From IMG/VR virus record IMGVR_UViG_3300037847_000950, positions 1 through 22,928 of that record: DNA of 22,928 nucleotides; one strand, 5' to 3'. Within the stretch, counting starts at the first letter, position 1, and every line of letters starts with the position of its first letter. Shown piece by piece: positions 100 through 20,670 of this stretch. The translations under genes were made by a program, and so were the position numbers. The notes beneath the pieces were generated by a model. It was given only the letters and a program-made list of their open reading frames with translations, did not search any database and was not told the origin of the DNA. The DNA is from a virus.

Positions 100-3000
100 T
101 TAACAAGCTAGGTAGCCTGAGAAGTTGCTCTGTGCGGATACTGGAATATCCATTTGTGCTGTACCTTCATACTGTCCTATATCAACTAGTGCAGTATCTG
201 AAGCATCCATATCTGCAAGTACAGAAAGTGAAATTTGATCTCTAACTCTATCTGCTGAATAGTTAGGTTCAATTATATAAGTGTAATCTCTATTTGAAGT
301 ACGAATTTCAACTCTTATATAAGTTGCTTCAGCATCTGAATCATTTATATACAAAAGTGCATTAAGTTGATACTTACCTGTTACTGGTGCAGTAAATGTA
401 GAAGTACTTGTATTATAATCTGAATTTTGATCAAAAATTTCAGTAGTAAATCCTACTGTGTTTCTGCTTGCATCAGTTGCAACATTAGTTGTTGCTGTTC
501 CTACTTGTGCAGAAAAAGCTGGTTGCAATGGCATGGTGACCCAACCACCTTGATTTATTTCCATCACAGTAGTGTCACTAGCTTCTTGAACAAAAAGACC
601 GTGTGAGGACGTATCTTTTTGGATAGTCCATTTCTTAGTTCCTACGTTAGTAAAAATAATACCAGCACCGTTTTGTGTAGTAGTATTTTCAACTTCGATG
701 TAAGCATCTGTTGAATGAGCAAAACTAGCAACTGATGTATGGCTTTGATTACCATTTCCTACTGCGAGAAGAGCGTTTGGACTTGTTTCACCAATACCCA
801 CGTTTCCAGAAGTATCAATACGCATTCTTTCAGCATCATTTGTGCGAAAATGCATTGAGTTACTTGAATGCTCGTAGTTCACGAACCCTACGTTGGTGTC
901 ATCCTCATCTTGGAATTGTAGAGATGAAAGTCCTGATGAATTAGCAATCATCCTTAGCCTAGCGTCTCCGCCAGAATTCGTTGATTGAAGAGTAATTTCT
1001 GCATCAGAAGACGTTGATTTAATGTGTAGCAAATCGTTAGGCGAATCAGTCCCAATACCTAATCCAGTTGAGTCCAGAACCATTTTTTCGGAACCAGCAA
1101 CATCAAAGCGTATCTTGTCTTCATCAGAGGACTCTTCGACCTGTATCATTGTATCGCCATCAGCATCAAGTAGCTGATTAGCAGTAGTACTAGAAGTATT
1201 AGTATTTGTAATAGCCTCTACCAAGACTCCAGTAGGAGGAGCAGTACTAAAGGTTAGTGTAGTTCCAGAGATTGAATAGTTTGATTTGCTCTGGTAAACT
1301 CCATCAAAGTATACCTGTACGTTATTCTCATGTACAGGAGCTACAGATAATGTCAGTGTCGTATCACTACCATCACCTGTCATTGTATTAATTGTATTAT
1401 TAGATCCACCTACAGTAGTTGTACTGTGATACGCTGTAATAACCCTACCACTTGCAGGAGCAGCACTTAGCGTTAATGTAGTACCTGATACACTGTAAGC
1501 ATTGTGTGCTTGGAATACACCGTCTACAAATACCATAAGGTTATTTTCATCGTCAGGTGCAGTACTTAATGTAAAGGCAGTAGTAGATCCATCACCAGTA
1601 TAGATATTAGTATCCATATTAGTACCAGAACCACCACCAATAGCTCCCCAAGAGTCCGTATAGCCTTCAAACTTACCAGTAGTACTATTGTATCTAAAGT
1701 ATCCTGCTACGCCTGTGGGCCTCTGTGCTGTTGTACCTACAGGTACGTGTACAGCATCTGTAGCACTACCAATGTCAAGAGAGACATCAGGTGCAGCATT
1801 TAGAATACCTACTCTATTTGTAGATGAATCAACTACTAATGTATTTGAATCCCAATTAAAGTCTCCTGTACCACCTGTCAGTGCAGTAAGAGTTCCTAAG
1901 CTTGTAATGTTTGTTTGTGCAGCAGTCTGTAATGTACCTGTGAGATTGCCTGAGAAGCCTGTAGCAGTCAAAAGACCTGTAGAGGGGTTATAAGTAAGCC
2001 CTGTGTCTGTCTCTGCTCCCTGTGAGCCTGTAGCTCCGTCTACGAAGACAGGGTATACTGTTTCATCAGTTGAGTTATTTGCTGAGACTGTAAAGTTATC
2101 TGCTGTACCTGTAGTATCTTGGTTAAGAGTGCCTATTACAAAGTCTAGCGTATTATCTGAGTCTTCATATGAGACTGTGATATTCGTTTCTGTATTTGAG
2201 CTAACCATAGCTCCTACAGTATCTGCAATAGTTTCTGCTAGTGTTACGCCGTCAATAGTGATAGCATCAGCTTCAAGTGTACCGTCAATGTCTACGTCAC
2301 CACTAATATCCAGTGTAGCTGCATCCAGCTCACCAGTAATTGTAAAGTTTCTAACGCCTGTATAATCCTTGTTAGAATCCAATACAACGGCTTTAGAAGC
2401 TATTGCAGTACCTACTGCTGTACTACCAAGGTCTAGTGCATTAAGCTCTCCTACGACTGCTGTAATGCCGTCTAAGGTATTTATTTCAGACGCTGTAGCT
2501 GTTACACCGTCAAGTATGTTTAGTTCTGCTGCGGTACTTGTTACACCATCAAGAATATTAAGTTCCGCTGCTGTTGAAGTAACTCCGTCTAGAATGTTAA
2601 GCTCTGCGGCTGTAGCTGTTACGCCATCTAGTATGTTTAATTCCGCTGCTGTAGAAGTTACTCCATCTAATATATTAAGTTCTGCTGTTGTACTAGTAAC
2701 GCCATCTAAAATATTTAATTCTGCTGCGGTGCTTGTAACACCGTCCATAATATTAAGTTCAGCCGCAGTAGCTGTAATAGCTGTACCATTTAAATCAAGG
2801 GTATCTATGTAGGCAGTTCCATCTACATATAGATCTTTCCATTCAGATCCTGATGCACCTAAGTCATATGTATTATCAGCACTAGGAAGTAAATTAGAAG
2901 CAACATCAGCACTAAATGCTACTGTATCTGAAGCAGCATCTCCAAAGGTTAAGTTACCTGCAATAGTTGCATTACCTGTTACTGTAAGATTACCACCTAC

Positions 3001-3846
3001 ATCTAGATTACCTGATATGTCAGCAGCACCATTAATATCAATCGTAGTAGCATTTATTTCTATTTCAGTATCAGATACAAGATCAAGTACACCGTCTGCG
3101 CTTTGATGTATGTAAGTACCTGAATCACCAAACTGTAGTTGATCTGTGCTAGATAAAAGAAGTCCAGTATCAGCTACATGAGTAAGAGAAACATCTTGAT
3201 CATCTCCAAAGTAAACTACTGCTCCATCTGCTAAATAAAGATCACTAAACTCTAATGAAGCTGTACCTAATGCAGCACCATCTGAAGCATCAGGGACAAA
3301 AGCTGTAGTAGCTGTAATCGTAGTTCCTTCTATAGTACTAGAACCTGTAATAGCTCCACTAGCTGCTATAGTAGTAAAAGACCCTGCTGCTGCACTAGAC
3401 CCACCAATTACAGCACCATCTACTGTGCCACCATTAATATCTGCTGTATCTGCTACAAGTGCATCTGTAGTTACTGTACCATCAAAATATGCATCTTTAA
3501 ATTCTAATGAGCTTGTACCCAAGTCTATATCATTATCTGTTACAGGTACAATAGCTCCATCCTGTATTCTTATTTGCTCTACTGCGCTACTAGAAACTTC
3601 TACAAAGAAACCCCAACGATTGTTAGAGCTATCAACTACAATTTTATTAAGAAAATCTAAGTCACCAATAGTATGAATGTTACCACCGTGTCCAGCAGTT
3701 CCATCGTGTCTGTGTCCTGTAGCAGTAGCACTAGTAGAAGAATAAGTAAAAGCATTTTCAAGTTGATTGTATTCGTTATTAAATAATGCTGCTGTAATGG
3801 TATCTCCATCTACGAACGTACTTTGTCTAGTATAGCTTTGAGCCAT
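100..3846 (-). CDS. Tail fibre protein with LNILDGVT repeats and C1q-like tip
   Basis: A 1248-aa protein, the largest in the window, probably the receptor-binding fibre attached to the short tail. The N-terminal ~70 residues (MAQSYTRQSTFVDGDTITAA...) form a collar typical of marine podovirus fibres, followed by beta-rich shaft repeats (LGTSSLEFKDAYFDGT, LGASGSEWKDLYVDGT). Residues 360-476 are nine tandem 13-residue units. Two ~60-73 residue copies of a TGDGS...VDGV...SGTTLTLS domain follow, then two fibre motifs of the type MRIDTSGNVGIGETSPN. Residues ~1105-1248 look like a C1q/TNF-type jelly roll (PAFSAQVGT, FDQNSDYNTSTSTFTAPVTG, YQLN). The start overlaps nothing but follows tandem stops (TAATAAATG), and the ribosome site AGGAAGGAG lies inside the upstream gene's last codons. 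Function is known for such fibres; host receptor is unknown. Confidence 0.88.
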   Translation of the reverse strand: MAQSYTRQSTFVDGDTITAALFNNEYNQLENAFTYSSTSATATGHRHDGTAGHGGNIHTIGDLDFLNKIVVDSSNNRWGFFVEVSSSAVEQIRIQDGAIVPVTDNDIDLGTSSLEFKDAYFDGTVTTDALVADTADINGGTVDGAVIGGSSAAAGSFTTIAASGAITGSSTIEGTTITATTAFVPDASDGAALGTASLEFSDLYLADGAVVYFGDDQDVSLTHVADTGLLLSSTDQLQFGDSGTYIHQSADGVLDLVSDTEIEINATTIDINGAADISGNLDVGGNLTVTGNATIAGNLTFGDAASDTVAFSADVASNLLPSADNTYDLGASGSEWKDLYVDGTAYIDTLDLNGTAITATAAELNIMDGVTSTAAELNILDGVTSTTAELNILDGVTSTAAELNILDGVTATAAELNILDGVTSTAAELNILDGVTSTAAELNILDGVTATASEINTLDGITAVVGELNALDLGSTAVGTAIASKAVVLDSNKDYTGVRNFTITGELDAATLDISGDVDIDGTLEADAITIDGVTLAETIADTVGAMVSSNTETNITVSYEDSDNTLDFVIGTLNQDTTGTADNFTVSANNSTDETVYPVFVDGATGSQGAETDTGLTYNPSTGLLTATGFSGNLTGTLQTAAQTNITSLGTLTALTGGTGDFNWDSNTLVVDSSTNRVGILNAAPDVSLDIGSATDAVHVPVGTTAQRPTGVAGYFRYNSTTGKFEGYTDSWGAIGGGSGTNMDTNIYTGDGSTTAFTLSTAPDDENNLMVFVDGVFQAHNAYSVSGTTLTLSAAPASGRVITAYHSTTTVGGSNNTINTMTGDGSDTTLTLSVAPVHENNVQVYFDGVYQSKSNYSISGTTLTFSTAPPTGVLVEAITNTNTSSTTANQLLDADGDTMIQVEESSDEDKIRFDVAGSEKMVLDSTGLGIGTDSPNDLLHIKSTSSDAEITLQSTNSGGDARLRMIANSSGLSSLQFQDEDDTNVGFVNYEHSSNSMHFRTNDAERMRIDTSGNVGIGETSPNALLAVGNGNQSHTSVASFAHSTDAYIEVENTTTQNGAGIIFTNVGTKKWTIQKDTSSHGLFVQEASDTTVMEINQGGWVTMPLQPAFSAQVGTATTNVATDASRNTVGFTTEIFDQNSDYNTSTSTFTAPVTGKYQLNALLYINDSDAEATYIRVEIRTSNRDYTYIIEPNYSADRVRDQISLSVLADMDASDTALVDIGQYEGTAQMDIPVSAQSNFSGYLAC
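1204..1602 (-). repeat. Two-copy internal domain duplication in the tail fibre
   Basis: Two consecutive related modules share the pattern (Y/M)TGDGS-TT-TLS-AP--ENN--V-(V/F)DGV(F/Y)Q---YS(V/I)SGTTLT(L/F)S(A/T)AP. The first runs 1602 to 1384, the second 1383 to about 1204. They sit between the shaft and the NVGIG-type motifs, consistent with a duplicated beta-sandwich module along the fibre. Confidence 0.8.
2419..2769 (-). repeat. Nine tandem 39-bp (13-residue) repeats in the tail fibre
   Basis: Exactly 351 bp, encoding nine units of the form TAAELNILDGVTS. Seven are near identical in protein, the last two diverged (TASEINTLDGITA and VVGELNALDLGST). At DNA level the near-identical units differ at many third positions, so the peptide is conserved while the codons are not. 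The repeat probably forms regular beta-structured fibre shaft. Confidence 0.92.
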
Positions 3847-11994: not shown

Positions 11995-12094
11995 TAACAA
12001 TCCTTTCATATTGTTTTTTAATTTGTTCTTGCTGACGTTTTAAATCTTTTTCTTGTTCAGATACTGTGGGTTTTTTGTTAAATCTAATTTTCAA
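11981..12094 (-). CDS. Small basic coiled-coil protein, 37 aa, TTG start
   Basis: The ORF (MKIRFNKKPTVSEQEKDLKR...) starts at TTG overlapping the large-terminase stop as TTGA, with GGAG eight bases upstream (ATACGGAGTTTGGATATTG). It ends inside the first codons of the portal gene. It fills the only gap between terminase and portal exactly. The C-terminal half is a charged helix (EKDLKRQQEQIKKQYERIV). Function unknown; it could be a terminase-portal accessory, which is only inference from position. Confidence 0.62.
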   Translation of the reverse strand: MKIRFNKKPTVSEQEKDLKRQQEQIKKQYERIVNGRR

Positions 12095-13770
12095 TATCCA
12101 AACTCCGTATCTATTGGCGTATAAGCCTGTTCCATTCTCATATGTCTCATTTGAGCTAAAGGATCATTTATTTTAGGTCTTGACATAATTAAATAACGCA
12201 AAGCATCATATGCATGATCCTGTGCGTGAGTGTCAACATCTTCAGGGTTAGATCGATCCAACGGAATACTTTGTAGCTCACGTATCAGATTAGGACAAGT
12301 ATTAAATATTTGTATTCGTGGCCTTCCGCTTTGTTGCACTTTTAAGTATTCGTGGATCTGGATCTTTCCTTGAATCCTGTTCTTATCTGCCCTTCGTAGC
12401 TTATGTCCTGCTCTTACAAGCGTTTCACCTACTGTAGGGCCTGTTGTTCCTGTTCTATTCCATGCTGCTGTGTCAAGTACACCAGCAACAGAGAAAGGAT
12501 CTTGTAATTCCATTTGAGTAATTAGCTGTGCTAAATCAACTCCTGTTAGATTCTTTTGATACAACTCTCGATATACAATAAGAGTTCCGTCAGAAGGATC
12601 TATAGTAGACCATATACAAGCACTTTCAGAAGCGTAACCATAGTCAATACCTTTTACTCTTTCCCAACCTACAGGTATTTCAAATGGAGGGATAACATGT
12701 ACAGAAGGATCAAACTCTGTGAAGGCTGCTCCTTCCGATATATCCCAATTACCTTCTAATAACTGCCTACGTTGTACATCAGGCAGGGCTTTTAACATCT
12801 GCTCGTATCGACCATCCTGAGATAAAAACGGATTGTCTTGAAGTCTAGCAGGTATAAACTTTCTTGTCAAGCCATCTGAACCTTTAAAAGAATCATTAGG
12901 AACACAAGGATCAATATATCGTTTCTTGACCCAATGTGCGCCAATACCTCCGGGGTTCGCTGTACAACGTAGGTAAGGGACAATATCTGGATCAGTAGTT
13001 CTTAATCGAGATGCTAAATAGTTCCACCCAAATTCTGTTGGTAGGTGGGTAATCTCGTCAAAACCAATCCAAGAATAGGCTTGTCCCTGATAACGATATA
13101 CATCTGCATCCCTCTCTAGGAATCCAAACTCAACTTTTGCTCCGCTAGGAAAGTTCCATAACTTTTCTACTTCTCTAAACTTAGAACCCGGAAAAGCTTT
13201 AGGATATAATTCCCTAGACTTGTCAATTAATTCTCTTAGCTCTGGCATAGACCTTCTAAGTATTAAAGCTCTATGCGCTGCTCTGTGGCAATATCTTAGC
13301 GGATCTACTAACATCGCATAAGATTTACCACCTCCTGCTGCTCCTCCGTATAGTACATCGGTTTCTCCAGCAGCTAGGAATTCTGTCTGTGGGCCTTCAT
13401 TAGGCTCAAATACTACATTTTGCTCTACTTCTTCTTTTAATTTTTTAGGTAGAGACTTTATATCTTCAACTATCTTTCCTGTTGTAGAAGATTCTTTATC
13501 GTCTAATTTAGCAAGTACTTCTTTAGAAGTATTAGCAGAGTTTCGAAGAGCATTTAGTTTATTTCTTGTTTTCTCTATTTGTTTTTCTTTTATTCTAACT
13601 TGCTTTCTAGCAGCTAACTTAGCTTTAGTTTGAGAATGATAATTATATCCTCTAGACTTTGATCCTTTAGGTCTACCGCCTTTCTTACGTGGTGTACCAT
13701 CTGCTTTAAGTTTAAAGTTACCTTCAGAGTCTGTCAAGTACTTTGAAGGATTTATATCCCAATCATTCAT
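12091..13770 (-). CDS. terL: Terminase large subunit (packaging ATPase-nuclease)
   Basis: 559 aa. ATPase motifs are Walker A GGAAGGGKS at residues 142-150, Walker B WIGFDE at 234-239 and coupling motif TANPGG at 270-275. The RNase H-type nuclease acids are D376 (GIDYGYA), D433 (VLDTAAW) and D518/D522 (DHAYDALRY). The enzyme cuts concatemers and pumps DNA through the portal. An N-terminal extension of about 115 residues precedes the ATPase, with an AT-hook-like KKGGRPKGSK at 29-38 and a basic helix at 48-75. Start overlaps the upstream gene by 8 nt. Confidence 0.95.
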   Translation of the reverse strand: MNDWDINPSKYLTDSEGNFKLKADGTPRKKGGRPKGSKSRGYNYHSQTKAKLAARKQVRIKEKQIEKTRNKLNALRNSANTSKEVLAKLDDKESSTTGKIVEDIKSLPKKLKEEVEQNVVFEPNEGPQTEFLAAGETDVLYGGAAGGGKSYAMLVDPLRYCHRAAHRALILRRSMPELRELIDKSRELYPKAFPGSKFREVEKLWNFPSGAKVEFGFLERDADVYRYQGQAYSWIGFDEITHLPTEFGWNYLASRLRTTDPDIVPYLRCTANPGGIGAHWVKKRYIDPCVPNDSFKGSDGLTRKFIPARLQDNPFLSQDGRYEQMLKALPDVQRRQLLEGNWDISEGAAFTEFDPSVHVIPPFEIPVGWERVKGIDYGYASESACIWSTIDPSDGTLIVYRELYQKNLTGVDLAQLITQMELQDPFSVAGVLDTAAWNRTGTTGPTVGETLVRAGHKLRRADKNRIQGKIQIHEYLKVQQSGRPRIQIFNTCPNLIRELQSIPLDRSNPEDVDTHAQDHAYDALRYLIMSRPKINDPLAQMRHMRMEQAYTPIDTEFGY

Positions 13771-13987
13771 TTTCTACTATCTTTTTTAATCCCATATGAC
13801 TTAAATATCTTCCTGTTTTATAAAGAATCCAGTTAGCTCCTTCTCTAAGAGATATAGATCTATCTTTAATAAGAGGTTTAATTTCATTAAGAACCTCTAG
13901 TTGTTCTGGTATTTCTTCCAGAAATGCAGAATCCTTTTCAGATATTTTGTATCCAAAAGGTATAGTAGAACTTTTACGTTTTAACAT
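13763..13987 (-). CDS. Helix-turn-helix-like protein, 74 aa
   Basis: MLKRKSSTIPFGYKISEKDS... overlaps the small-terminase gene by 14 nt and the large-terminase gene by 8 nt, so it lies locked inside the packaging module. The C-terminal half (SLREGANWILYKTGRYLSHM, GLKKIVENE) has the look of the helix-turn-helix tail found after recombinase-type domains, where a SLR-x2-x-W-x2-x3-G pattern is common. A DNA-binding packaging accessory is plausible; I cannot name a family. Confidence 0.7.
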   Translation of the reverse strand: MLKRKSSTIPFGYKISEKDSAFLEEIPEQLEVLNEIKPLIKDRSISLREGANWILYKTGRYLSHMGLKKIVENE

Positions 13988-14357
13988 CTATAACAACTTC
14001 TTCCTTAGCAGGTAACACAAATATGCCACCTTCTACTTTATGACTAACATCTAACTTATCAGATTTACCAAGACCGATACGATCTAAAATTGTTTGAGCA
14101 GCTTGTAGTCTTATATTTGCTTGTGGAATAGGTTGATCTGATTCCATAACATTTACAAGCTTCATAGCTGCTTTAGGTGCAGATTGTGCTAATATATTAG
14201 AGGCCAAGTCTATTATTTCATTCTTTAATGCTTTTGTCACTTGCCAATGGGTATTAGCAGCATATCCTGCTTTCTCAGCCGCAATTTTAGGATCACCTCC
14301 TGATTCAATTAGTGAGTCTAAGAAACTTTGTTGTCTAGTTGTCAATTCTTTTTTCAT
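13974..14357 (-). CDS. terS: Terminase small subunit
   Basis: 127 aa at the head of the packaging module, directly before the large subunit's partner gene. The N-terminus has a helix-turn-helix (LTTRQQSFLDSLIESGGDPK, IAAEKAGY) of the small-terminase type and a helical middle (NIRLQAAQTILDRIGLG), ending DVSHKVEGGIFVLPAKE, a tail seen on small terminases. It recognises phage DNA and recruits the large subunit. No Shine-Dalgarno precedes the ATG; the -10 box TATAAT ends six bases upstream, so the transcript likely begins at or within a base or two of the ATG (leaderless). Confidence 0.8.
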   Translation of the reverse strand: MKKELTTRQQSFLDSLIESGGDPKIAAEKAGYAANTHWQVTKALKNEIIDLASNILAQSAPKAAMKLVNVMESDQPIPQANIRLQAAQTILDRIGLGKSDKLDVSHKVEGGIFVLPAKEEVVIDVKT

Positions 14358-14363
14358 TATTCT

Positions 14364-14392
14364 ATTATAGTCCTAGTTTACACATTTGTCAA
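14364..14392 (-). promoter_or_regulatory. Consensus sigma70 promoter for the structural operon
   Basis: On the minus strand TTGACA (14392-14387), 17-nt spacer, TATAAT (14369-14364): a perfect match in both boxes. It fires leftward into the small terminase, whose ATG begins six bases beyond the -10 box. The -35 box is one arm of a dyad shared with the divergent promoter. Confidence 0.9.
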
Positions 14393-14408
14393 GTTTTTTC
14401 TTGACAAA
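14385..14408. promoter_or_regulatory. 9-bp dyad across both -35 boxes (candidate operator)
   Basis: TTTGTCAAG, six T, CTTGACAAA is a perfect inverted repeat. Each arm contains one promoter's -35 hexamer, so the two polymerase sites are about 8 bp apart and cannot both be filled at once, or a dimeric regulator could control both. The loop of six T would be a poor terminator for either direction. Confidence 0.75.
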
Positions 14409-14429
14409 ACTTCAAATCAGTACTATACT
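14401..14429 (+). promoter_or_regulatory. Divergent sigma70 promoter for the early arm
   Basis: TTGACA (14401-14406), 17-nt spacer, TATACT (14424-14429), one mismatch in the -10. Transcription would start near 14436 and the RNA would begin almost at once with the hairpin GACCCC-ACC-GGGGTC (14438-14452). It reads toward the 180-aa early gene through about 640 nt of structured leader. Confidence 0.85.
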
Positions 14430-14660
14430 ATTACATAGACCCCACCGGGGTCATACCTATATTATATAGCCACTTTAAAGGTCTTTAGAGGCGCATCTAA
14501 ACTGGTTTACATCTATTTTAGTTAAAAATGTATATCTATTAGTATATATATGGGGTAGCCCCTATGGCCTCCTGCCTACCCTTCGAAGGTCTATGAAGAT
14601 TCCAAAGGAATCTCATGTTCCCTCTCCAGAGAACTTCCTAGTTTACAAGATCAAAGAGGC

Positions 14661-14708
14661 TCTTTAGAGTCTTTAAAGTTTCAAAGAAACTTCAAAGACC
14701 TCTAAAGA
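14661..14708. repeat. Long imperfect hairpin, AAA loop
   Basis: Arms TCTTTAGAG-TCTTT-A-AAGTTTC and GAAACTT-C-AAAGA-C-CTCTAAAGA pair over about 21 bp with one mismatch and one bulged C around the triloop AAA at 14683-14685. The outer 9 bp and inner 7 bp are perfect. Confidence 0.85.
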
Positions 14709-14896
14709 TTTCAAAGACTTACAAGATTTTGTTCCCTCCTTTAGTAAATACTTGCTAGATTTCGAAGAAATCTAAAGTTGCCGCTCAAAATTGACGCTGA
14801 TTTAGCCTCAAAGACTTCAAAGATCTTTTAGATCTTTGAAGATCTTTGGGTCGGTCGTTCACTTCAAAGACTTCAAAGATCTAAAAGATCTTTGAA
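14680..14896. repeat. Cluster of eight TTCAAAGA words (iteron-like)
   Basis: TTCAAAGA occurs forward at 14680, 14691, 14710, 14816, 14863 and 14872, and inverted (TCTTTGAA) at 14833 and 14889. Clustered short repeats with palindromes in an AT-rich non-coding segment are typical of iteron-like replication origins, but no binding protein is identified here. Confidence 0.6.
14815..14841. repeat. Hairpin A, 11-bp arms, TTTTA loop
   Basis: Arms CTTCAAAGATC and GATCTTTGAAG are perfect around a TTTTA loop. A near-identical element follows 30 bp downstream with the loop inverted. Confidence 0.9.
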
Positions 14897-14897
14897 G
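14871..14897. repeat. Hairpin B, same arms, TAAAA loop
   Basis: The arms are identical to those of hairpin A but the loop is TAAAA, the reverse complement of TTTTA. Hairpin B is therefore an exact inverted copy of hairpin A, as expected if the element was flipped or copied on the other strand. Confidence 0.9.
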
Positions 14898-14920
14898 GCT
14901 TTGCCAATCATGGAGAAATT

Positions 14921-14958
14921 CTTGAACTTTAAAGTCTTTAAAGACTTTAAAGTTCAAG
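14921..14958. repeat. 38-bp perfect palindrome
   Basis: Two 19-bp arms with no spacer: the left arm starts CTTGAACTTTAAAGTC, the centre is TTTAAA and the right arm ends GACTTTAAAGTTCAAG. It contains CTTTAAAG three times. Confidence 0.95.
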
Positions 14959-14961
14959 GTT

Positions 14962-15033
14962 AGTTATCATATCTATAAAAACTTTAAAAGAAGTCACAAA
15001 GTGACTTTTAAAGTTTTTATAGATATGATAACT
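14962..15033. repeat. Giant hairpin with 33-bp arms before the first early gene
   Basis: The right arm (15001-15033) pairs over its whole length with the left arm (14962-14997), which carries three extra bases (about 14990-14992) as a bulge. The apex is GTCAC-AAA-GTGAC. It ends 44 nt before the chosen ATG at 15078. As RNA it would be a strong duplex, a likely RNase III target or translation control element. Confidence 0.93.
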
Positions 15034-15077
15034 TAGAGGTCGGGTTCGAAAAATTTAACCGATTGGAGATGTCGATT

Positions 15078-15620
15078 ATGACAAACGAAAATTTAAGCAT
15101 CGCTGAAGACAAGCAAATTGGCAAGACTGCTAGAATTATAGCAGGAACGATTTGCGAAAGCAAATCCCTGCCGTTTTATCTTGTGAGCTTCAAGCCGAGA
15201 GGCTCAAGCTGGAGTCGTAACGGAAGACTTTCCGTTAGAGTCTTCGCCACCATCAAGAACGCCTTTGGCGGTGAGGTTCCAACACAAGCTCTACGAGCTT
15301 TGGAGCAAGATTGTGAAAACAATCTTACTGGAAAGGGTTCGCAGAAAGTCTTAGCATCTCTAAAAATCGAAGATTTTGTAGAGCAATACGGCACTAAGGT
15401 TTCAAAGAAACCTTCAGTGAAAGCTAAAGCAAAGACTTCTACGAAGTCCAAGCCGACTGCTAAAGTGACTCCAAAGGAGTCTACTAAACCAGCGACCAAT
15501 GCTTTCGCAAAATCTCTTGAGATTAATCTGAAAGCACTGGATCAGGATAATTTGCAATCAGAAGAGATTGAGGCGATACAAGAAAGTCTTCTTCAAACTT
15601 TTGAATTAGCGAAGTCTTAA
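15078..15620 (+). CDS. Early protein of unknown function, hairpin-rich gene
   Basis: 180 aa, first gene after the rightward promoter. I start it at the ATG at 15078 because GGAG (15065-15068) is 9 bases upstream; an in-frame TTG at 15063 and ATG at 15069 lie on or against the ribosome site. Residues ~20-105 form a compact domain (ARIIAGTICESKSLPFYLVS, RLSVRVFATIKNAFGG, EVPTQALRALEQDCENNL), then a Lys/Ser/Thr/Pro linker (SVKAKAKTSTKSKPTAK) and an acidic helical tail. Not recognised. The coding sequence itself holds at least eight perfect hairpins with 6-8 bp stems and 3-4 nt loops. By position it may be a host-takeover or regulatory protein. Confidence 0.8.
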   Translation: MTNENLSIAEDKQIGKTARIIAGTICESKSLPFYLVSFKPRGSSWSRNGRLSVRVFATIKNAFGGEVPTQALRALEQDCENNLTGKGSQKVLASLKIEDFVEQYGTKVSKKPSVKAKAKTSTKSKPTAKVTPKESTKPATNAFAKSLEINLKALDQDNLQSEEIEAIQESLLQTFELAKS

Positions 15621-19879: not shown

Positions 19880-20178
19880 TGTATACTACACATACTTTGT
19901 TATCTCTGAAAGATCAACTTTTAAATCCTAAAAGAAGTGATAAGTTTCAAATGCCTTTTTATTTAGAAGGCTGGCGAATATGTGATGTATCTGTTGGATC
20001 TAAAAAATGTAGAGTAGTACCTATAACTAAACGAGGCGGTAAAACTTTCACACTTTTTAAATTAAAAGAACAACTTCAAAAACATTACTGGACTGCTGCA
20101 AAAACTGATGCTACTATAAAAGCATGGAGTAATGGTAAAAGAAAACGCCCAAGAAATTGGGAAAAAGATTATGCTTGA
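19879..20178 (+). CDS. Hypothetical basic protein, 99 aa
   Basis: MYTTHTLLSLKDQLLNPKRS... with a basic C-terminus (SNGKRKRPRNWEKDYA). Start overlaps the upstream stop (TAATG). The -35 box of the next promoter lies at its last codons, so this gene closes the small-gene operon. Function unknown. Confidence 0.72.
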   Translation: MYTTHTLLSLKDQLLNPKRSDKFQMPFYLEGWRICDVSVGSKKCRVVPITKRGGKTFTLFKLKEQLQKHYWTAAKTDATIKAWSNGKRKRPRNWEKDYA

Positions 20179-20203
20179 CAGGAAAAAACCTGTCGGTTAT
20201 AAT
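20175..20203 (+). promoter_or_regulatory. Perfect sigma70 promoter with spacer dyad (SSB gene)
   Basis: TTGACA (20175-20180), 17-nt spacer, TATAAT (20198-20203): full consensus. The spacer contains the inverted repeat GACAGG (20177-20182), six A, CCTGTC (20189-20194), which overlaps the -35 box and could be an operator. It reads into the ssDNA-binding gene and the replication genes. Confidence 0.92.
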
Positions 20204-20235: not shown

Positions 20236-20670
20236 ATGGCTGTACTTGAAGGAACTGCATATTGGGCTTTTGTGAAAACGCCTAACACTAAGTTCGAACC
20301 TACATATAGTGTCAATCTTGTAGTTGACAACGAAACTGCATCTGATTTTGAAGATCGTGGTTTCACTGTCAAGCAAATGGATGAAGGCCCTGCTGTTGTA
20401 ATAAAGCGGAAGGTCAATGGCCCTAATGGTATGATTCGAAAGGCTCCAGACCTTATCGGTAGAAACCTTGAAGAGCTTGATGTCAATGTAGGCAATGGCT
20501 CGAAGGTCAGGGTTAAGTACAAAGAGTGGGAGTCTACTTGGAATGGTAGGAAATTCAAAGGATTAGATTTTGTCAAGATGCAAGTCATTGATCTTGTCGA
20601 ATACAATCCAGAAGGTAGTGGCGACGATGAACTAACAGCAGTAGATGATGAGGAGCTAGATGATCTATGA
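20236..20670 (+). CDS. Single-stranded DNA-binding protein (T7 gp2.5-like)
   Basis: 144 aa, with an OB-fold pattern (GTAYWAFVKTPNTKFEPTYS, VKQMDEGPAVVIKRKVNG, SKVRVKYKEWESTWNGRKFK) and a strongly acidic C-terminal tail (GDDELTAVDDEELDDL). The acidic tail is the hallmark of phage SSBs that touch polymerase and helicase; T7's tail ends in Phe, here Leu. It is shorter than T7 gp2.5 (232 aa). It coats ssDNA during replication. It has its own consensus promoter and lies three genes before the DNA polymerase. GGAGA precedes the ATG. Confidence 0.82.
   Translation: MAVLEGTAYWAFVKTPNTKFEPTYSVNLVVDNETASDFEDRGFTVKQMDEGPAVVIKRKVNGPNGMIRKAPDLIGRNLEELDVNVGNGSKVRVKYKEWESTWNGRKFKGLDFVKMQVIDLVEYNPEGSGDDELTAVDDEELDDL

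Follow-up and report, generated by a model that had tools for sequence, protein, structure and literature searches.

A conserved pair of back-to-back, near-consensus promoters at the divergence of the virion and early arms in an HMO-2011-type marine phage

Introduction

Divergent promoters read by the host sigma factor share a single region in lambda-type control regions, whereas late transcription of the T7 type is carried out by a phage-coded single-subunit RNA polymerase. The literature that we searched yielded no account of temporal gene ordering in HMO-2011-type phages and no expression data for this group; the two pelagiphages for which transcriptomes exist belong to other groups. The HMO-2011-type genome paper (PMC9038755), from which the word "promoter" is absent, describes these phages as dominant in the ocean and as broadly distributed there. 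Phage Felix O1 lacks an RNA polymerase gene, and host-type promoters are predicted 5′ of its putative early genes as well as its putative late genes (PMC3185647). Its authors found no polymerase gene and left the timing of expression unexplained (PMC3185647).

In this work, we analyzed a stretch of 22,928 nucleotides (positions 1 to 22,928 of IMG/VR record IMGVR_UViG_3300037847_000950; hereafter the window) from a 50,856-bp phage genome, with a focus on the intergenic region from which its two gene arms diverge.

Phage identity and gene content

Based on sequence similarity, the phage is a marine member of the HMO-2011 type, with related terminase, portal, and capsid genes as well as a family A DNA polymerase and a helicase-primase. 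Nucleotide matches to its terminase region were found in HTVC115P, HTVC103P, HTVC104P, HMO-2011, and CRP-1. The leftward arm encodes the small terminase subunit TerS (13974-14357, − strand; phrog_2538, E = 3e-6), the large terminase subunit (12091-13770, − strand; phrog_979, E = 3e-63), the portal, and the capsid. This virion arm also contains a 1248-aa ORF (100-3846, − strand) with a run of near-identical TAAELNILDGVT repeats. The rightward arm encodes a cell wall hydrolase, a gp2.5-like protein, the helicase-primase, the family A DNA polymerase, endonuclease I, and ribonucleotide reductase. The first early ORF (15063-15620, + strand; 185 aa) has no confident family assignment and probably starts at the ATG at 15078, with a GGAG at 15065-15068.

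No RNA polymerase, including the single-subunit kind, and no sigma factor was found among the proteins scanned, which represent part of the ORFs, such that a divergent polymerase or regulator could have escaped. The Rfam search gave no match and the tRNA scan found none.

A divergent promoter pair and its conservation

Two consensus-type promoters lie back to back at the divergence. The promoter of the virion ("late") arm (14364-14392, − strand) reads TTGACA-N17-TATAAT and matches the consensus at 12/12 positions, with its −35 box at 14392-14387 and its −10 box at 14369-14364. The promoter of the early arm (14401-14429, + strand) reads TTGACA-N17-TATACT and matches at 11/12 positions, with its −35 box at 14401-14406 and its −10 box at 14424-14429. 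Both fit the hexamer pattern of sigma-70 (RpoD), i.e., TTGACA and TATAAT at a distance of 16-18 bp, and the same is true in 141 distinct relatives. The sequence-only reading had already placed both promoters at these coordinates and assigned one host-type promoter to each arm; both points are borne out by the comparisons made here, with starts expected near 14357 and 14436.

Across the 50,856-bp genome, six sites match the consensus at 11/12 positions or better, compared with a mean of 2.1 and a maximum of 8 in dinucleotide shuffles (n = 200). A divergent near-consensus pair within 60 bp occurs once in the genome and in none of the 200 shuffles. The pair is beyond chance, single sites alone are not significant, and conservation in relatives is decisive. 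The leftward promoter is the only site of at least 11/12 facing the virion arm in the whole genome, whereas right-facing sites of this quality are found in the early arm at 14401, 17487, 18975, and 20175. These directions agree with the gene map (four rightward sites within the early arm and one leftward site facing into the virion arm), with one exception at 34145. The site at 20175-20203 (+ strand) is a second 12/12 match and is located just 5′ of the gp2.5-like gene at 20236. The exception matches at 11/12 positions and runs antisense to the virion arm (genome position 34145, + strand; L086 position 11246).

Among relatives, both promoters were found in all 75 loci recovered by the terminase search, each matching 11-12 of 12 positions. 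When all loci with a TerS match and sufficient upstream sequence were pooled (n = 217) and a pair was defined by matches of at least 10/12 on each side, the pair was present in 205 loci, which contain 141 distinct promoter cores. The −10 boxes of these cores are TATAAT or TATACT in all but two of 282 promoters. The 12 loci that lack the pair are mostly distant (TerS identity <50%) and include HMO-2011, CRP-1, CRP-2, CRP-345, and CHOED. At the divergence, a 12/12 site that faces the virion arm is present in HMO-2011 and CRP-2 but lacks a near-consensus early partner, and in CRP-1 both are missing; thus, the pair belongs to a subclade. As a check without promoter bias, loci were retrieved by the conserved ~57-bp element described below alone. 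Among those with sufficient sequence (n = 89), the pair was found in 87 and TerS in all 89; for the 50 loci outside the first set, 48 have the pair.

The −35 form found in Alphaproteobacteria is CTTGAC. A C directly precedes TTGACA in most relatives (64/67 for the virion arm and 57/67 for the early arm), which fits this form. A pattern scan of viral contigs also recovered perfect back-to-back promoters in at least 64 viral loci (among L100-L216) whose terminases have no detectable similarity to that of this phage. The layout by itself therefore does not identify the phage group.

We consider it likely that this region is the master control of an HMO-2011-type phage, in which the host polymerase starts both arms from two separate, back-to-back, near-consensus promoters. 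This reading draws on the positions, conservation, variable spacing, and start-codon geometry of the promoters, together with predicted folding; from these, we infer the use of both promoters, by the host sigma factor, and its timing. Both promoters, one for each genome arm, would be recognized by the host RNA polymerase carrying the main sigma factor. The leftward RNA would run from the region of the TerS start codon through terminase, portal, capsid, and the rest of the virion arm. The rightward RNA would begin with a hairpin, continue through a structured untranslated leader of ~600 nt, and then enter the early genes. The dyad seen at this locus would arise from two CTTGACAAA-type −35 regions that are close together; in relatives, the promoters are retained whereas their spacing varies. 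A delay of the virion arm, if any, might come from gene copy number rising after replication or from an early protein acting on CTAGTTTACA, which are our leading guesses.

Predicted transcripts of the two arms

The ATG of TerS is located at 14357, 6 nt past the −10 box of the virion-arm promoter, and the corresponding distance is 6-11 nt in 129 of the 141 distinct relatives. Given that transcription typically starts ~7 nt past the −10 box, these distances imply a leader of 0-5 nt. The virion-side mRNA probably starts at the TerS start codon or within a few nucleotides of it and is predicted to be leaderless. The first 30 nt of the predicted virion-arm RNA are unstructured (mean −0.6 kcal/mol). 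The corresponding site in HMO-2011 is ~190 nt from the next annotated gene, such that the leaderless layout belongs to a subclade. This arrangement suggests that unmodified host polymerase may transcribe the virion genes into a leaderless mRNA.

At its 5′ end, the predicted early RNA is expected to fold into the hairpin GACCCC-ACC-GGGGTC (14438-14452, + strand), as judged by folding against shuffles. In 88 of 107 distinct relatives (p = 1e-12), the first 30 nt of the early RNA exceed dinucleotide shuffles in folding stability, whereas windows at 70-100 nt do not. The hairpin stems in relatives have many different sequences. An automatic alignment of these 5′ hairpins gave no consensus pairs, probably because sequence alignment fails to register the stems, and perfect stems at the 5′ end are in little excess over other leader windows. 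The support for the predicted hairpin is its folding energy relative to shuffles, with covariation not formally shown.

The early promoter is followed by an untranslated, hairpin-rich leader of ~600 nt (14436-15062, + strand), in which no convincing ORF was found. The segment 14436-15070 has a folding z-score of −18 against shuffles, and most relatives are alike in this respect while sharing little sequence. Long, near-perfect hairpins are arrayed at 14600-15033 of the early leader, and the arrays in relatives differ in sequence. Such an array could also be purely a DNA feature. Its raw stability is greater on the opposite strand, as a DNA feature would allow, but relative to shuffles, the strand of the early RNA has the somewhat greater excess (18/24, p = 0.003).

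A conserved noncoding element and its associated repeats

A highly conserved noncoding element of ~57 bp is located at 14525-14582 (+ strand) and consists of AAAATGTATA...AGTATATATA, a variable GC-rich core, and GGCCTCCTGCC. It was found as a single copy in each of 71 further loci (E of 1e-2 or better) and is present in nearly all close relatives examined, where two conserved blocks flank the variable core. Visual inspection of the divergence revealed diverged versions in HTVC115P, HTVC103P, HMO-2011, CRP-1, and CRP-2. In HMO-2011, CRP-1, and CRP-2, TerS is kilobases away from the element, which indicates that the position of the element is tied to the divergence and not to TerS. No description of this element was found in the literature. 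Its anatomy combines an A+T-rich block and flanking repeats with one copy per genome, and the GC skew turns near 15 kb, coinciding with the change of gene direction. A replication origin and a packaging site are the two leading candidates for what the element may be. A T7-type or mitochondrial-type G-rich signal was also considered but dropped, as the core varies between G-rich and C-rich among relatives.

The motif CTRGTTTACA occurs exactly three times in the whole genome, always in the same orientation (+ strand) and within 14373-14647. The first exact copy, CTAGTTTACA, is inside the spacer of the virion-arm promoter (14373-14382); the second, CTGGTTTACA, is just upstream of the ~57-bp element (14502-14511); and the third, again CTAGTTTACA, is downstream of the element (14638-14647). 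We tentatively entertain control of the virion-arm promoter by an early phage protein that would bind the CTAGTTTACA repeats. Such control is compatible with initiation by host polymerase at both promoters and would supply the timing. The confinement of all three exact copies to this region in one orientation points to it, as does the flanking of the ~57-bp element by two copies in many relatives. However, the spacer copy is found in only a minority of relatives (this phage, L001, L005, L008, and L080, with a variant in HTVC115P), no binding protein was identified among the proteins scanned, and a role of the flanking copies in replication or packaging is an alternative.

A broader proposal, to which we likewise give limited credence, is that the intergenic region acts as a compact composite control element in a widespread group of marine phages. 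It would combine a virion-arm promoter for a leaderless mRNA, an early promoter whose structured leader is capped by a hairpin, and the ~57-bp site with its flanking CTAGTTTACA repeats; early transcription by the host polymerase would prime T7-like replication there, or packaging would begin there. If this is true, a single region governs where replication begins and in which direction transcription proceeds. The region offers exact predicted start sites that can be tested and a noncoding element kept in nearly every close relative examined.

Spacing of the −35 boxes

The two −35 regions form a dyad, read from the sequence as TTTGTCAAG-T6-CTTGACAAA (14385-14408), with TTTGTCAAG at 14385-14393, TTTTTT at 14394-14399, and CTTGACAAA at 14400-14408. 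The sequence-only reading had described the −35 boxes as interlocked in one dyad. Both boxes are indeed part of the dyad, but "interlocked" is too strong because the hexamers do not overlap and are separated by 8 bp. Among the 141 distinct cores, the gap between the −35 boxes ranges from 3 to 49 bp (8 bp in 14 cores and at least 16 bp in 106), and both promoters are near-perfect despite this variation. Therefore, the dyad is not a conserved feature or a fixed unit, and the tight spacing seen here is one among many. A single dyad operator with a fixed half-site distance was rejected on the basis of this range. In relatives, the spacers tend to open with A's and a C mostly precedes TTGACA on both sides, such that two close CTTGACAAA-type regions yield the 9-bp arms without any further signal.

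These observations also bear on the suggestion that the arrangement forces competition between the arms or control by a single dimeric factor, which is unsupported as a general rule given the gap range. Coupling of the two promoters, either by mutual exclusion of polymerases or by one dimeric factor on the dyad that switches between early and late transcription, appears unlikely. At this locus, the −35 boxes are 8 bp apart and the predicted starts ~79 bp apart, which is near enough for crowding. The gaps in relatives also have a weak periodicity of 10.5 bp (R = 0.31-0.37, p = 0.0001-0.008 depending on clustering, against a smooth null), but these statistics ignore kinship, and the phasing is only a hint that leaves some room for coupling. 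Against it, both promoters stay near-perfect across the full range of gaps, with 106 of the 141 distinct relatives at 16 bp or more, and the dyad arms are accounted for by the −35 boxes with their preceding C and following A's. Where the −35 boxes are 27-49 bp apart, two polymerases presumably need not exclude each other. It is highly implausible that the leftward site matches the consensus by chance, with transcription of the virion arm starting elsewhere. Although ~2 sites of at least 11/12 are expected by chance in a genome of such size, this one, beside TerS, is kept in 205 of 217 loci and no other near-consensus site in the genome faces the virion arm.

Comparison with known systems

The reading of two separate host-type promoters, one per arm, can be compared with several described systems. 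By terminase similarity, HMO-2011, HTVC115P, HTVC103P, HTVC033P, CRP-1, and CRP-2 belong to the same phage group. HTVC115P, HTVC103P, and HTVC033P are like this phage in having near-consensus sites that face both ways at the divergence, although these sites are farther from TerS in HTVC033P. In contrast, HMO-2011, CRP-1, and CRP-2 lack a near-consensus early promoter, and in these phages TerS is separated from the divergence by other genes.

Salmonella phage Felix O1, whose kinship to this phage is not shown, is similar in its predicted host-type promoters for putative early and late genes and in its lack of a phage RNA polymerase, which was likewise not found among the proteins scanned here, but no back-to-back near-consensus pair serving both arms has been described for it (PMC3185647). 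The sequence-only reading had regarded a host promoter on late genes as unexpected; this was an overstatement in light of the Felix O1 precedent (PMC3185647) and the lack of a polymerase gene among the proteins scanned here.

As in lambda-type regions, divergent promoters of the host-sigma type are found in a single control region, but the analysis identified neither a repressor gene nor a shared operator, and virion genes are carried on one of the arms. The replication genes, namely, those for the helicase-primase, family A polymerase, gp2.5-like protein, and endonuclease I, resemble those of T7. Unlike T7-type late transcription, no single-subunit RNA polymerase was found among the proteins scanned, and the virion arm has a host-type promoter.
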